64,000 bases of DNA from Sneathiella aquimaris (GTDB lineage Bacteria; Pseudomonadota; Alphaproteobacteria; Sneathiellales; Sneathiellaceae). Below the pieces are notes generated by a model, which was not told where the DNA came from, did no database searches, and was given only the letters and a program-made list of their open reading frames with translations. A program made the translations under genes and the position numbers. Shown one piece after another: positions 3,494 through 8,351 of this stretch (positions are counted from its first letter, which is position 1; every line of letters begins with the position of its first letter). Location of the stretch: contig NZ_CP112881.1 of assembly GCF_026409565.1 (NCBI RefSeq), forward strand, positions 2,217,501 through 2,281,500. The letters are read 5' to 3'.

Positions 3494-6400
3494 TTAAATA
3501 TCGTGAACATCTACAACACCGGGAACATATTTGATCGCCTGGCGTATTTCTGGAGAGATATTGTAGGTTCTAGCCAAATCCAGCTCGACCTCTTTTGAAT
3601 CGCCCTCAAGGGTCAGAATAAAGGCCACCCGGCCCCGACCGACGCCACCATTCTGAAGAATATCCGAGACTTGCTTCAACGGACCATCATCATCGATAAA
3701 GATCTTGACCCCGTCGCCTGTCTGGGCTGCGACTGTCTCAAGCCGTTGAACTCCTTGCGCTGTCAGTCGGGGTTGTTCGTTGTCGACATTACCAAGGACG
3801 TTAATGACAAGAGAACTACCAACCTCCAGAATCTCGCGGCACTGAAACAGCACCTCTTCGAACATTGTGACCTCAAAGGCCCCTGAAGAATCTGACAGTT
3901 GAACAAAGGCGAGTGCTTTTCCTTTTTTCGTTCTCAACTGGCGCTTTCCCATAACAGTCCCGGCAAGACGCGCCGCCGTTTCCGATGCCCCAAGCGATTC
4001 CAGATATGTGGCGCTGCTGCGAACCCCTGCTTTTTCAAGTGTTTTCGCATAAGCATCGAGAGGGTGACCCGACAAATAGAAGCCAATTGCATCAAATTCG
4101 TGCTTAAGGCTTTCCATGGATGTCCAACGGGACGCTTTTGCCAAACTCGGCGTTACCTCTGCCACCGTGTCGGACCCTCCAAAAAGATTAACCTGTCCGC
4201 TGCCCCGCTCTTCCTCTGCTTGCTGCGCATATCGTAAAAGCAATTCCAACGAGGCAAAAACCTGTGCCCTGTCCGCATGCAGGGCATCAAACGCACCTGC
4301 CCGGGTCAGGTTTTCCGCCTGACGTTTATTCATATGCTTAGGGTTGATCCGGGACGCGAAATCGAACAGGTCCTTGAAGGGTCCATTTTCATAGCGTTCC
4401 TTGACGATGCCTGCCATTGCTTCACGACCAACATTCTTAACCGCTGACAAGGCATACCGTACTGCGCCCTCGTCGCCCTTGAATTCGACAGAAAATTCCA
4501 CCTCTGAATGATTGAGACAAGGAGGGTAAACCGGGATTTTCATTCTATCCAGATCTTGCCGGAATATGTTCAGTTTATCTGTATTATTCAAGTCCAGACT
4601 CATGGACGCCGCCATGAATTCGACTGGGTAATTCGCCTTCAGATAAGCCGTGTGATACGACACCAATGCATAGGCCGCCGCATGGGATTTATTGAAACCA
4701 TAACTCGCAAATTTTGCCACAAGGTCAAAAATGTGGCTGGCATCTTTCGCCTTGACCCCCTGCTCGACCGCCCCATCACAGAAACGCTCCCGCTGTTTGT
4801 CCATTTCTTCTTTAATTTTTTTGCCCATGGCACGGCGCAGCAGATCCGCTTCACCAAGGCTGTATCCCGCAAGAACCTTGGCAATTTCCATCACCTGTTC
4901 CTGATAAATAATCACGCCATAGGTTTCTTCCAGAATATGCTTCAGTTTATCATGCAGCAAATTCGGCTCTTCAAGACCATGTTTACAGCGAATATAGGTC
5001 GGAATATTTTCCATGGGACCCGGACGATACAAGGCCACAATCGCGATAATATCCTCAAACGCATCGGGTCGCATTTTTCGAAGCATATCCCGCATGCCCG
5101 AACTCTCAAGCTGGAAAACGCCAACCGTGTCGCCACTGGACAACAACTCAAACGTTTTAGGGTCATCAAGCGGGATCTTGGCAAAATCAATTGGAATATT
5201 CCGTTTTGCCAGAAGATCCTTGGCCCGGTCCAAGACAGTCAGGGTTTTCAACCCCAAGAAGTCGAACTTTACCAGTCCTGCCGTTTCCACATATTTCATG
5301 GAATATTGTGTAACCGGCATATCAGATCGCGGATCGCGATATAGTGGTACCAGTTTATCCAGCTCCCGGTCCCCGATCACCACGCCCGCCGCATGGGTTG
5401 AGGCATGCCGATACAGACCTTCAAGCTGCAGCGCAATTTCAATCAGTCGAGCAACATCCGCATCCGTATCCCGGGCCTCGCGTAATGGATATTCAGTATC
5501 CAGTGCCTCCTGAAGGCTCATAGGGTTGGCCGGATTAGACGGTATCAGCTTACTGATCCTGTCAACCTGACCATAAGGCATCTGCAAAACACGGCCCACA
5601 TCACGAATGGCCGCCTTGGCCTGCAACTTACCGAATGTGATGATCTGAGCGACTTGATCATGTCCGTATTTGTCCTGAACATACCGGATCACACGCTCGC
5701 GTTTATCCTGACAGAAATCGATATCAAAGTCGGGCATGCTCACCCGCTCCGGGTTCAAAAACCGCTCGAACAGCAAACCAAAACGCAACGGATCAAGGTC
5801 TGTAATAGTCAAGGCCCACGCAACCACCGAGCCCGCGCCTGATCCACGCCCCGGCCCGACTGGAATATCATTTTCTTTCGACCACTGAATAAAATCCGAA
5901 ACGATCAGGAAGTATCCGGGAAATCCCATCTGGTTGATCACACCGGTTTCATATTCCAACCGGTCGAAATATTCCTTGTGCTTGGCTGCCTTGACATCCT
6001 CGTCCATGTCCGCGGTAAACACTTCTTCTTCCAGACGCTTTTGCAAGCCCTGACGGGCCAATGCTTCCAGAGCCCCGGCCTCATCCCGACCCTCAGAGGA
6101 AGAAAAGGCGGGCAGGATGGGATCCCGCGCAGGCGACAACACCGCGCAGCGTTTTGCAATCACCAGCGTGTTTTGGATGGCCTCGGGTAAATCACTGAAC
6201 AGAGCCTGCATTTCATCCGCAGACTTGAAGTAATGTTCGGGTGTCCGTCTTTTCCTCTCAAGATCCCCGACATAGGTACCATTGGCGATACATAATAGGG
6301 CATCATGCGCGTCATACATTTCCTTTTTCGGAAAAAAACATTCATTGGTCGCAACCAAGGGAATATCGTGCTCGTAAGCCAGATCCAGCATAAACGGCTC

Positions 6401-6997
6401 GGTCAGTTTCTCCAAATCCAGGTCATGACGTTGAATTTCCATATAAAGGCGGCCAGGGAAGATCGTTTTCAACCGAAGCAGATACGTTTCAGCATCCTCC
6501 ATCTGCTCGTTCTCAATCAGCTTTCCAATGGGGCCTTCTGCGCCGCCGGTCAAGCAGATCAATCCTTCAGAACAACTTTCCAGATACTCAAGACTGACCT
6601 GCGCCGTATCGCCCGCCTCGGTTTCAAGAAAGGCATGAGAGGTCAATTTTAAAAGATTGTAATACCCAGCCTCATTCTGAGCCAAAAAAACCATGGGATC
6701 CGGATCCGGTTTCCGACCATTTCGGTCAAGCGGTCCGGTGCTGGTCACGGAGACCTGACACCCCATAATTGGCTGGACGCCGCCAGAGGGAAAAGACAGT
6801 GACATTTCCAGACTACCAAACAAATTATTAGTATCTGTCAATGCGACCGCAGGCATTTTAAAATCCTGACACAGCCCTAACAGTCTTTTGACCGGTATCG
6901 CCCCTTCGGACAGGGAGTACGCGGTGTGAACCCGCAAATGGACAAAACCGGCATGGGACAAGGAAACATTCTCCATCAGTGACTTTATACGTCCCAT
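3494..6997 (-). CDS. dnaE: DNA polymerase III subunit alpha
   Basis: Replicative polymerase of the DnaE1 class. At 1167 residues it has the normal length. The N-terminal PHP domain starts with FVHLRVHTAYSL. The C-family polymerase core shows GPGRGSGAGS near residue 380 and the catalytic aspartates in MPDFDIDFCQDKR near 420. Helix-hairpin-helix and OB-fold domains follow (FYLSGHPLDAY, GTVMGKRQLRTKKGKA). I choose the ATG at 6997, ten bases after AAAAGGG; an upstream in-frame GTG at 7003 has poorer spacing. It is not the DnaE2/ImuC error-prone form, having full PHP and C-terminal parts. A LexA-controlled small gene and a perfect DnaA box lie just upstream. Confidence 0.97.
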   Translation of the reverse strand: MGRIKSLMENVSLSHAGFVHLRVHTAYSLSEGAIPVKRLLGLCQDFKMPAVALTDTNNLFGSLEMSLSFPSGGVQPIMGCQVSVTSTGPLDRNGRKPDPDPMVFLAQNEAGYYNLLKLTSHAFLETEAGDTAQVSLEYLESCSEGLICLTGGAEGPIGKLIENEQMEDAETYLLRLKTIFPGRLYMEIQRHDLDLEKLTEPFMLDLAYEHDIPLVATNECFFPKKEMYDAHDALLCIANGTYVGDLERKRRTPEHYFKSADEMQALFSDLPEAIQNTLVIAKRCAVLSPARDPILPAFSSSEGRDEAGALEALARQGLQKRLEEEVFTADMDEDVKAAKHKEYFDRLEYETGVINQMGFPGYFLIVSDFIQWSKENDIPVGPGRGSGAGSVVAWALTITDLDPLRFGLLFERFLNPERVSMPDFDIDFCQDKRERVIRYVQDKYGHDQVAQIITFGKLQAKAAIRDVGRVLQMPYGQVDRISKLIPSNPANPMSLQEALDTEYPLREARDTDADVARLIEIALQLEGLYRHASTHAAGVVIGDRELDKLVPLYRDPRSDMPVTQYSMKYVETAGLVKFDFLGLKTLTVLDRAKDLLAKRNIPIDFAKIPLDDPKTFELLSSGDTVGVFQLESSGMRDMLRKMRPDAFEDIIAIVALYRPGPMENIPTYIRCKHGLEEPNLLHDKLKHILEETYGVIIYQEQVMEIAKVLAGYSLGEADLLRRAMGKKIKEEMDKQRERFCDGAVEQGVKAKDASHIFDLVAKFASYGFNKSHAAAYALVSYHTAYLKANYPVEFMAASMSLDLNNTDKLNIFRQDLDRMKIPVYPPCLNHSEVEFSVEFKGDEGAVRYALSAVKNVGREAMAGIVKERYENGPFKDLFDFASRINPKHMNKRQAENLTRAGAFDALHADRAQVFASLELLLRYAQQAEEERGSGQVNLFGGSDTVAEVTPSLAKASRWTSMESLKHEFDAIGFYLSGHPLDAYAKTLEKAGVRSSATYLESLGASETAARLAGTVMGKRQLRTKKGKALAFVQLSDSSGAFEVTMFEEVLFQCREILEVGSSLVINVLGNVDNEQPRLTAQGVQRLETVAAQTGDGVKIFIDDDGPLKQVSDILQNGGVGRGRVAFILTLEGDSKEVELDLARTYNISPEIRQAIKYVPGVVDVHDI

Positions 6998-7054
6998 TAT
7001 CACACATCCCTTTTAAAAGATCAGTCCTTGACACCCTCCGTTTTGATAAATTCT

Positions 7055-7063
7055 TGTGGATAA
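7055..7063 (-). promoter_or_regulatory. Consensus DnaA box upstream of dnaE
   Basis: TTATCCACA on the minus strand, identical to the strongest E. coli-type DnaA box, about 60 bp upstream of the dnaE start and downstream of the small SOS gene. A single box in 64 kb could occur by chance; its position makes a role in dnaE control possible. Confidence 0.45.
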
Positions 7064-7103
7064 GTTGCGGTGGCTGGATCCCCAAGCCGCAACCAATCAA
7101 ACT

Positions 7104-7211
7104 TCATCCTGTAAAGCTGTGAACAATTTCGGCCCAAAAAACCATGGTCGCCAAAGCACCCCCGAAAACGAGACATTCAAAACCGTTTTTCATCCAATTA
7201 AAGTTCGACAT
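7104..7211 (-). CDS. SOS-controlled small membrane protein (SidA-like)
   Basis: A 35-residue protein with a short polar N-terminus (MSNFNWMKNG), one predicted transmembrane helix (about residues 13-31, LVFGGALATMVFWAEIV) and a five-residue tail. The start at 7211 is preceded by GGAG with six bases spacing; two in-frame ATGs lie six and twelve bases further up. The promoter has a perfect -35, with a LexA box filling the spacer. In Caulobacter the LexA-induced division inhibitor SidA is a similarly short single-helix membrane protein and, from memory, lies next to dnaE. Inference: this is a SidA-type SOS division inhibitor acting in the inner membrane. The sequence is too short to prove homology by eye, so no symbol is given. 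Confidence 0.72.
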   Translation of the reverse strand: MSNFNWMKNGFECLVFGGALATMVFWAEIVHSFTG

Positions 7212-7239
7212 TTTCATCTCCATTGTTCTTATGGAGGCT

Positions 7240-7268
7240 ATTTTGTTCTTGTTTTGTTCTTTTGTCAA
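7240..7268 (-). promoter_or_regulatory. LexA-controlled promoter (SOS box GTTC-N7-GTTC)
   Basis: On the minus strand TTGACA (7263-7268), exactly 17 bp, then CAAAAT (7240-7245). The spacer is occupied by GAAC-N7-GAAC (7245-7259), which is the alphaproteobacterial LexA operator GTTC-N7-GTTC read on the other strand. LexA bound here would cover the polymerase site. The promoter serves the 35-codon gene at 7104-7211 and may also read into dnaE. Confidence 0.8.
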
Positions 7269-7270
7269 AC

Positions 7271-7298
7271 TAAAAAAAACACCCTCAAATAAAGGGTG
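7271..7298 (-). terminator. Terminator after boxR
   Basis: CACCCT, 7-base loop, AGGGTG, then eight T on the minus strand. It closes the box cluster 38 bp after the boxR stop and lies immediately upstream of the SOS promoter, insulating dnaE from catabolic transcription. Confidence 0.85.
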
Positions 7299-7335
7299 CC
7301 TAAACTGATATTTATCAATGCCTTAGACCGCGCCC

Positions 7336-8265
7336 CTATATTTCGATCAGGCCACATTCCCGCATGACAGACAAAATATCACTCAGTGCCTGCCCCACAT
7401 CCCGTCCTGACGTATTTACGGTCATCTCCGCCCGCGCATACAATGCCTCACGGCTCATCAGGATACTTTTCAATTCATCCATCGCTTCCGGATTACCCGC
7501 CATGGGTCGCTCGTCCCCTTGCCCCCGAACCCGTGACATATGATCATCAGGATCGGCCTTGAGCCAAATTGTGTGATAGTGACGTAGAAGATAATTGAAG
7601 GTTTCCGGTTCCGACACAATACCGCCCGCCACAGCAAGAACGATAGAATCATGTGTGGCAGCAATCCTTTCCACGGATTGTTTTTCAAGCCTTCGGTACC
7701 CCTCCTGTCCATATAAGGCAATCACCTCATTTACCGGCATACCACTAGCTTGTTCAATTTCCTCGTTCAGCTCCAGAAAAGGCACGCCAATTTCTTCCGC
7801 GGACATCCGTCCCAGAGTGGATTTTCCAGCCCCGCGCAATCCAATGAAAGCAATTCGCCGCGACCGTTTTATGGCGGGGTGGTCGGGATCAAGTATTTCC
7901 AGCACGCGATTTCGCTGTTCTTTCGTCGACTGCTGCAAAAGTGACAGAATGGGAATAATTTCTGAATGGTAAGGATCTTCTTCGCCAACAAGCCATTCGA
8001 TTTTATAATCAAGGGCATCGGCCACCCGCCTCAACAAAACAATGGAAATATTCCCAGATCCGGTCTCCAGCTGCGCAAGATAGCGTTGCGACACACCCGA
8101 AATATCGGACAGGGCCTTCCGGGAAATATTTTTCCGAGATCGCGCCTCACGAACCCGCTGCCCCACCATCTCCATAAAGGGGGCCGCCAAATCGTTTTCA
8201 AAAGAGGAAGTCTCTTTCTCTCTTGTGAGTGTTTTACCACCAAAAGACGCAATTTCATTTTCCAT
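7336..8265 (-). CDS. boxR: Benzoyl-CoA-responsive regulator, HTH plus shikimate-kinase-like domain
   Basis: Two-domain regulator of the BzdR/BoxR family. After a variable N-terminal stretch of about 30 residues an XRE-type helix-turn-helix follows (VGQRVREARSRKNISRKAL, then SGVSQRYLAQLETG). The C-terminal half resembles shikimate kinase, with a Walker A loop GLRGAGKST and VAVAGGIV. In the known members this domain binds benzoyl-CoA and frees the DNA. Being last in the box operon supports BoxR over AroK; a shikimate kinase would lack the HTH. I place the start at ATG 8265 (309 residues); a GTG at 8304 is possible and neither has a strong Shine-Dalgarno. Confidence 0.88.
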   Translation of the reverse strand: MENEIASFGGKTLTREKETSSFENDLAAPFMEMVGQRVREARSRKNISRKALSDISGVSQRYLAQLETGSGNISIVLLRRVADALDYKIEWLVGEEDPYHSEIIPILSLLQQSTKEQRNRVLEILDPDHPAIKRSRRIAFIGLRGAGKSTLGRMSAEEIGVPFLELNEEIEQASGMPVNEVIALYGQEGYRRLEKQSVERIAATHDSIVLAVAGGIVSEPETFNYLLRHYHTIWLKADPDDHMSRVRGQGDERPMAGNPEAMDELKSILMSREALYARAEMTVNTSGRDVGQALSDILSVMRECGLIEI

Positions 8266-8351
8266 AGGCTGTACACCAAATCGTTCATAACACGCGAAAA
8301 ACACTATATTTCAATGGCTTCAACATATAACACGCAGTATTACAGAGGTCA

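Follow-up and report, generated by a model that had tools for sequence, protein, structure and literature searches.

Which product is made from the short reading frame in front of dnaE in Sneathiella aquimaris, and does it belong to the SOS response? We analysed a 64-kb stretch of DNA (64,000 nucleotides, hereafter the window), in which this frame lies between a promoter carrying a LexA-type box and the gene for the DNA polymerase III alpha subunit. SidA of Caulobacter, a protein of 29 aa in the inner membrane, is described as inhibiting division and as interacting with FtsW (PMC4211646). We consider it probable, at roughly 70%, that the window gene encodes a SidA-like but divergent inhibitor of division under SOS control, from an old and patchily kept family, a reading that draws on sequence comparison. 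The features of the locus are the following, in window coordinates.

3494–7003, minus strand: dnaE, DNA polymerase III alpha subunit (NF004226, 1496 bits).
7055–7063, minus strand: TTATCCACA, which we take to be a DnaA-box form, between the small gene and dnaE; present in 21 of 21 genus loci.
7104–7211, minus strand: the small gene, 35 codons, for a predicted single-helix, putatively SidA-like membrane protein (from translation, genus homologues, dN/dS below 1 and AlphaFold2).
7218–7221, minus strand: Shine-Dalgarno GGAG (from sequence); in the 21 genus loci a stretch ahead of the ATG matches AGGAG at 3–5 of 5 bases.
7240–7245, minus strand: −10-like hexamer CAAAAT, 17 bp from the −35; CATTAT in 9 of 21 genus loci.
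7245–7259, no strand assigned: LexA-type box GAAC-N7-GAAC, GAACAAAACAAGAAC, reading GTTC-N7-GTTC on the plus strand and filling the −35/−10 spacer.
7263–7268, minus strand: −35 hexamer TTGACA, perfect to consensus; in all 21 genus loci TTGAC stands equally far from the box.
7277–7301, minus strand: terminator-like hairpin behind the upstream gene and ahead of the promoter.
7336–8304, minus strand: upstream neighbour, a protein with HTH and shikimate-kinase-like parts, outside the unit.

Read on the minus strand, the unit runs from TTGACA through a 17-bp spacer holding GAACaaaacaaGAAC to the Shine-Dalgarno, the 35 codons and then dnaE. The sequence-only reading had claimed a perfect −35, a 17-bp spacer with GTTC-N7-GTTC, a Shine-Dalgarno and a 35-residue frame before dnaE, and all of these elements are present. 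The hexamers TTGACA and CAAAAT together agree with consensus at 10 of 12 positions, and the box, which reads GTTCTTGTTTTGTTC on the plus strand, shares one base with the −10 hexamer. Translation from the ATG at 7211 to the stop at 7104 yields the 35-residue protein MSNFNWMKNGFECLVFGGALATMVFWAEIVHSFTG. The longer mechanical frame (7104–7268) opens with a TTG at 7268 that is not a likely start; we regard 7104–7211 as the conserved coding part because, counted from the corresponding ATG, the frame is exactly 35 codons long in 20 of the 21 genus members, the remaining protein reaching 37 residues through a later stop. On the same strand, 100 bp separate the stop of the small gene from the mechanical start of dnaE (GTG at 7003, with an in-frame ATG at 6997).

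We searched the other genomes of the genus with the protein and obtained a match at E 1e-6 or better in 20 of 23; completeness is 84, 65 and 70 percent in the three genomes that lack one. All 21 genus loci, the window included, carry on the same strand TTGAC, a perfect GAAC-N7-GAAC, a Shine-Dalgarno-like stretch, the frame and dnaE. The frame contains neither stops nor frameshifts in any of them, and the 21 proteins align with zero internal gaps. A Nei-Gojobori analysis of the 210 genus pairs gave a mean pN of 0.234 versus a mean pS of 0.764, with synonymous sites near saturation; among the closest 25 pairs listed, out of 33 with pS <0.6, dN/dS is at most 0.18 in 21 and 0.36–0.49 in four. Stops or frameshifts in the frame and loss of the box had been named in advance as two of three grounds for refuting the proposed gene, and neither was seen in the 21 genus loci. 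The small frame is a coding gene under purifying selection. Pfam and NCBIfam returned nothing useful for the window protein (best Pfam match Ariadne, E=0.2, on the longer frame). Nine loci from outside the genus (L022–L030), found by the plain protein search at E 0.07 and above, were dropped as they showed no dnaE match.

These data bear on the possibility that the LexA-type promoter mainly raises dnaE transcription after damage and that the short frame serves as a leader peptide in the dnaE mRNA. The arrangement would suit it, as the gap to dnaE is merely 71–127 bp across the 21 genus loci and a simple minus-strand scan finds no terminator-like site separating the small gene from dnaE. Against this, it is the protein sequence itself that is conserved, as the low dN/dS values indicate, and it is related across families; two SidA-like frames of another family (f122), described below, lie with one-mismatch boxes on contigs other than that of dnaE, and SidA in Caulobacter is a division inhibitor (PMC4211646). 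We regard a leader peptide as very unlikely.

AlphaFold2, run with 13 aligned genus proteins, predicts one helix spanning residues 2–34 (mean pLDDT 92.6, pTM 0.49). Taken together with its hydrophobicity, from which we infer membrane insertion, the window protein is probably a short protein with a single transmembrane helix. Such a helix fits a toxic peptide as well as a division inhibitor, and SOS-regulated single-helix toxic peptides, DinQ for example, are described in E. coli (PMC3567139). The small protein could accordingly be a TisB/DinQ-like SOS-induced membrane peptide that lowers the membrane potential and slows growth instead of inhibiting the divisome. We consider this improbable: the polar residues K8 and E12 are invariant among the 13 aligned genus proteins, the profile comparisons reported below tie the window protein to SidA, whose known partner is FtsW (PMC4211646), and an Rfam search over 6900–7400 found no family, which leaves room for an undescribed antisense RNA.

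Is the box more than a chance word? GTTC-N7-GTTC occurs 3 times in the 64-kb window versus 2.13 expected, which is chance level for the box alone, and the whole genome holds 58 and 61 copies on its two strands, close to the 54 and 51 of the reversed pattern. Taken alone, the box is no proof; its constant position ahead of this frame in all 21 genus loci is not chance. The SOS box of Caulobacter is given as GTTCN7GTTC, the same form as the box in the window (PMC9578287). In the genome of the window, the lexA match has a perfect box 43 bp upstream, recA is preceded by one-mismatch boxes, and 3 of 15 other sites chosen for AT-rich spacers precede genes whose translations look, by eye only, like umuD, imuA and tag. 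The genome thus seems to use the GAAC-N7-GAAC form. The lexA gene, with its own box, lies at G000:C1:2200292-2201032, about 16 kb from the low end of the window. Some genus loci have an additional LexA-like site overlapping the −35 ahead of the small gene: it takes the form GTTC-N7-GTTT in five of them (L005, L006, L008, L009 and L010) and is a complete GTTC-N7-GTTC box in L007.

Of 387 genomes sampled from the class, 381 yielded a dnaE, as did 78 of 80 in a second set; from 93 alphaproteobacterial families we surveyed 120 regions upstream of this gene. GAAC-N7-GAAC lies within 600 bp before dnaE in 24 of the 120 regions (14 families), and a short hydrophobic frame follows it in 23 of these 24, where the frames counted for L161 and L162 are neighbouring frames and not the SidA-like ones. 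Controls gave far lower counts: (i) 11 permutations of the box word were found in 0–2 regions each, 0 with a frame, (ii) other spacer lengths from 3 to 12 were found in 0–4 regions, 0–2 with a frame, and (iii) the opposite form GTTC-N7-GTTC was found in 10 regions, 4 with a frame. The enrichment of the box before dnaE across the class is not chance. Perfect GTTC-N7-GTTC sites also occur 47–85 bp before dnaE in six loci that have no small gene (L046, L072, L076, L082, L122 and L128); they may be chance matches, part of coding sequence, or sites through which LexA controls dnaE directly.

A profile of the candidate genes recognised 26 regions of 15 of the 93 families at E 8.4e-5 or better, the next best match being at 2.3, and in all 26 a box, perfect or with a single mismatch, lies ahead of the frame or at it. 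In the other 78 families, the profile found no small gene before dnaE in the 120 regions. Since this profile was trained on the same genes, leaving out one family at a time is the clean test. The best held-out gene of each of the 15 families scored above every ORF from gene-less regions (353–370 ORFs scored, best negative 3.0–3.9 bits). For the family of the window (f1), the winners are proteins of the genus of the window: held out, all 21 reached 4.6–20.0 bits (window protein 12.6) versus 3.4 for the best gene-less ORF, and the sister-genus gene L106, which is counted in the survey, reached 2.7 bits versus the same best negative. Four families were weak when held out (f52, f57, f113 and f119; best scores 6.1–7.5 bits, best E 0.13–0.37).

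The profile was also run against the whole class, where 183 of 387 genomes matched at E<=0.5; most of the weak matches listed lie in longer frames and are taken as noise. The 32 matches at E below 1e-4 all lie directly before dnaE (28 plus L287, L295, L300 and L303). We picked 15 weaker places (E 0.00097–0.208), mostly for their short open frames and therefore not at random; the box was not used in finding them. Five have a perfect box just upstream (L307 of f122; L310, L319 and L321 of f19; L312 of f90), two of f122 have one-mismatch boxes (L308 and L309), and the other 8 have no box near the frame. L307 and L319 adjoin dnaE; L310 lies at a contig end. In L308 and L309 the SidA-like frame and dnaE are on different contigs; therefore the gene can live elsewhere, and it may have moved. 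One of the weaker places, L314 (f4), is a second place in genome G239 with a SidA-like frame, MKTIVKETLALTSL..., and no LexA box nearby; the same genome has a boxed gene before dnaE (L295).

How do these genes relate to SidA itself? The small gene of Caulobacteraceae (f63) specifies a 29-residue protein; 96 of 119 genomes of the family match at E 1 or better, and dnaE lies right downstream in 30 of 30 inspected loci. A scan for this family supplied 80 of 136 confirmed loci, mostly from Caulobacter, Phenylobacterium, Brevundimonas or entries named at family or order level, a few being assigned only to Alphaproteobacteria, Proteobacteria, Pseudomonadota or bacterium. The protein has 29 residues in all 80, and dnaE is directly downstream in 79, the last stretch ending 48 bases on. 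Within 120 bp, 57 of the 80 loci have a perfect box and 79 have a box with at most one mismatch. Two Caulobacteraceae proteins are SidA by the NCBIfam equivalog model NF033228 (div_inhib_SidA), with E 2.7e-20 and 1.9e-16 (72 and 59.7 bits). The CCNA_02004 locus, sidA, is presumably the same as CC1927. The assignments of sidA to CCNA_02004 (PMC10769358) and of dnaE to CC1926 (PMC1839093) are those of the Caulobacter literature.

Direct comparison does not connect the window protein to SidA. With NF033228, whose cut-off is 35 bits, the window protein gave 0 families at E<=10, and the model matches 4 of 27 members of the cross-family set at E<=10. For a profile made from Caulobacteraceae only, 75–418 of 500 full shuffles scored as well as or better than the four genus proteins tried; conversely, a genus profile recognised none of 8 Caulobacteraceae proteins, and among 21 proteins of other families only 6 stood out at <=1/300 full shuffles. 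Another profile, which excludes both the genus of the window and Caulobacteraceae, was built from 21 proteins of further genera, the sister genus contributing one. With it, all 21 genus proteins scored 14.4–25.5 bits and all 8 tested Caulobacteraceae proteins 16.4–24.8 bits, each outscoring every one of its 300 full and 300 local shuffles. In a variant of this profile, from which the sister-genus member was removed and to which Caulobacteraceae were added, four genus proteins were tried. The window protein scored 12.6 bits, a value equalled by 0 of 2000 full shuffles and by 2 of 2000 local ones; L002 and L014 likewise stood out, and L007 is weak (57 of 2000 full and 100 of 2000 local shuffles as good; 4.6 bits held out).

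Common descent of the window protein and SidA is therefore likely, as seen through intermediate families and not directly, with the caveat that short transmembrane peptides can look alike by convergence. An alternative is that the genes of the different families are independent inventions, SOS regulation having recruited short transmembrane frames before dnaE several times. The failure of single-family profiles between the genus of the window and Caulobacteraceae, the 6 of 21 proteins of other families recognised from the genus and the four families that are weak when held out would all be expected from it. Yet the families align over a core with few gaps, K/R-D/E ... A-L-x-S ... W, the best held-out member of each of the 15 families exceeds all negatives (for f1 a protein of the genus of the window, not L106), and the genes share the same place before dnaE, so that we judge independent origins to be unlikely. 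The earlier, conditional suggestion that SidA-like genes keep their place next to dnaE holds, since SidA of Caulobacteraceae lies directly before dnaE and related small genes with a box occur there in 15 of 93 families; the distribution is patchy, with no small gene found in 78 of the 93.

For the gene as a SidA-like division inhibitor, the following mechanism can be proposed, its steps of LexA repression, derepression, membrane insertion and inhibition of the division complex being modelled on established knowledge of LexA, RecA and SidA. In an undamaged cell, LexA would sit on GAAC-N7-GAAC between the −35 and the −10 and block transcription. Upon damage, RecA would make LexA cleave itself and the promoter would open; both LexA binding and damage induction are attributed to the candidate box by analogy. 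The 35-residue protein would then be made and inserted as one membrane helix, its lysine-bearing amino end probably inside. It would most likely bind the FtsW/FtsI/FtsN septal-synthesis complex and keep it inactive until repair is done, FtsW or FtsN being the putative target and division arrest the putative outcome. An AF3 study predicted SidA at TM7 of FtsW with low confidence (PMC13396833).

The locus may have a second output. Among the 120 class regions, 10 (from 9 families) carry TTATCCACA no more than 300 bp from dnaE; the 50 base-shuffled sets averaged 0.2 such regions and never exceeded 1. The motif possibly links DnaA to dnaE expression. We propose only tentatively, and with some doubt, that SidA is one branch of an old alphaproteobacterial SOS checkpoint family before dnaE, whose locus couples division arrest to dnaE supply by read-through past the DnaA-type box.

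SOS division inhibitors are hard to find by sequence because they are short and diverge fast. A rule of place, combining a LexA box, a one-helix frame of about 26–50 codons and dnaE, picks out, in 15 of 93 families, candidates overlooked by the NCBIfam SidA model. Should these candidates act as SidA does, the checkpoint described in Caulobacter could be tested throughout the class, and their natural sequence variety would map the residues that matter for hitting FtsW/FtsN. Our literature search, limited to partial texts, yielded no description of dnaE-linked SidA relatives outside Caulobacter; the primary sidA literature was beyond its scope and we do not claim a first description.

Among the known systems, SidA of Caulobacter is the closest counterpart, sharing with the window gene a LexA-type box upstream, a tiny protein with a predicted single helix, the place directly before dnaE and profile similarity through intermediate families. 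The window protein differs from it in having 35 instead of 29 residues, no match to NF033228 and no direct significant similarity. DidA of Caulobacter, likened here by description only, is also reported as a small DNA-damage-induced membrane division inhibitor (PMC4211646). Unlike the window gene with its LexA-type box, DidA is described as induced by DriD without SOS and as binding FtsN (PMC4211646). The conserved LexA-type box argues against an SOS-independent induction of the DidA type for the window gene. YneA and ChiZ carry LysM domains. Together with SosA, these proteins from Bacillus, Mycobacterium and Staphylococcus are described as damage-induced small membrane division inhibitors, a likeness again by description only, and YneA as interacting with FtsW (PMC13396833). 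They belong to other phyla, and SidA has been modelled on the opposite side of FtsW TM7 (PMC13396833).
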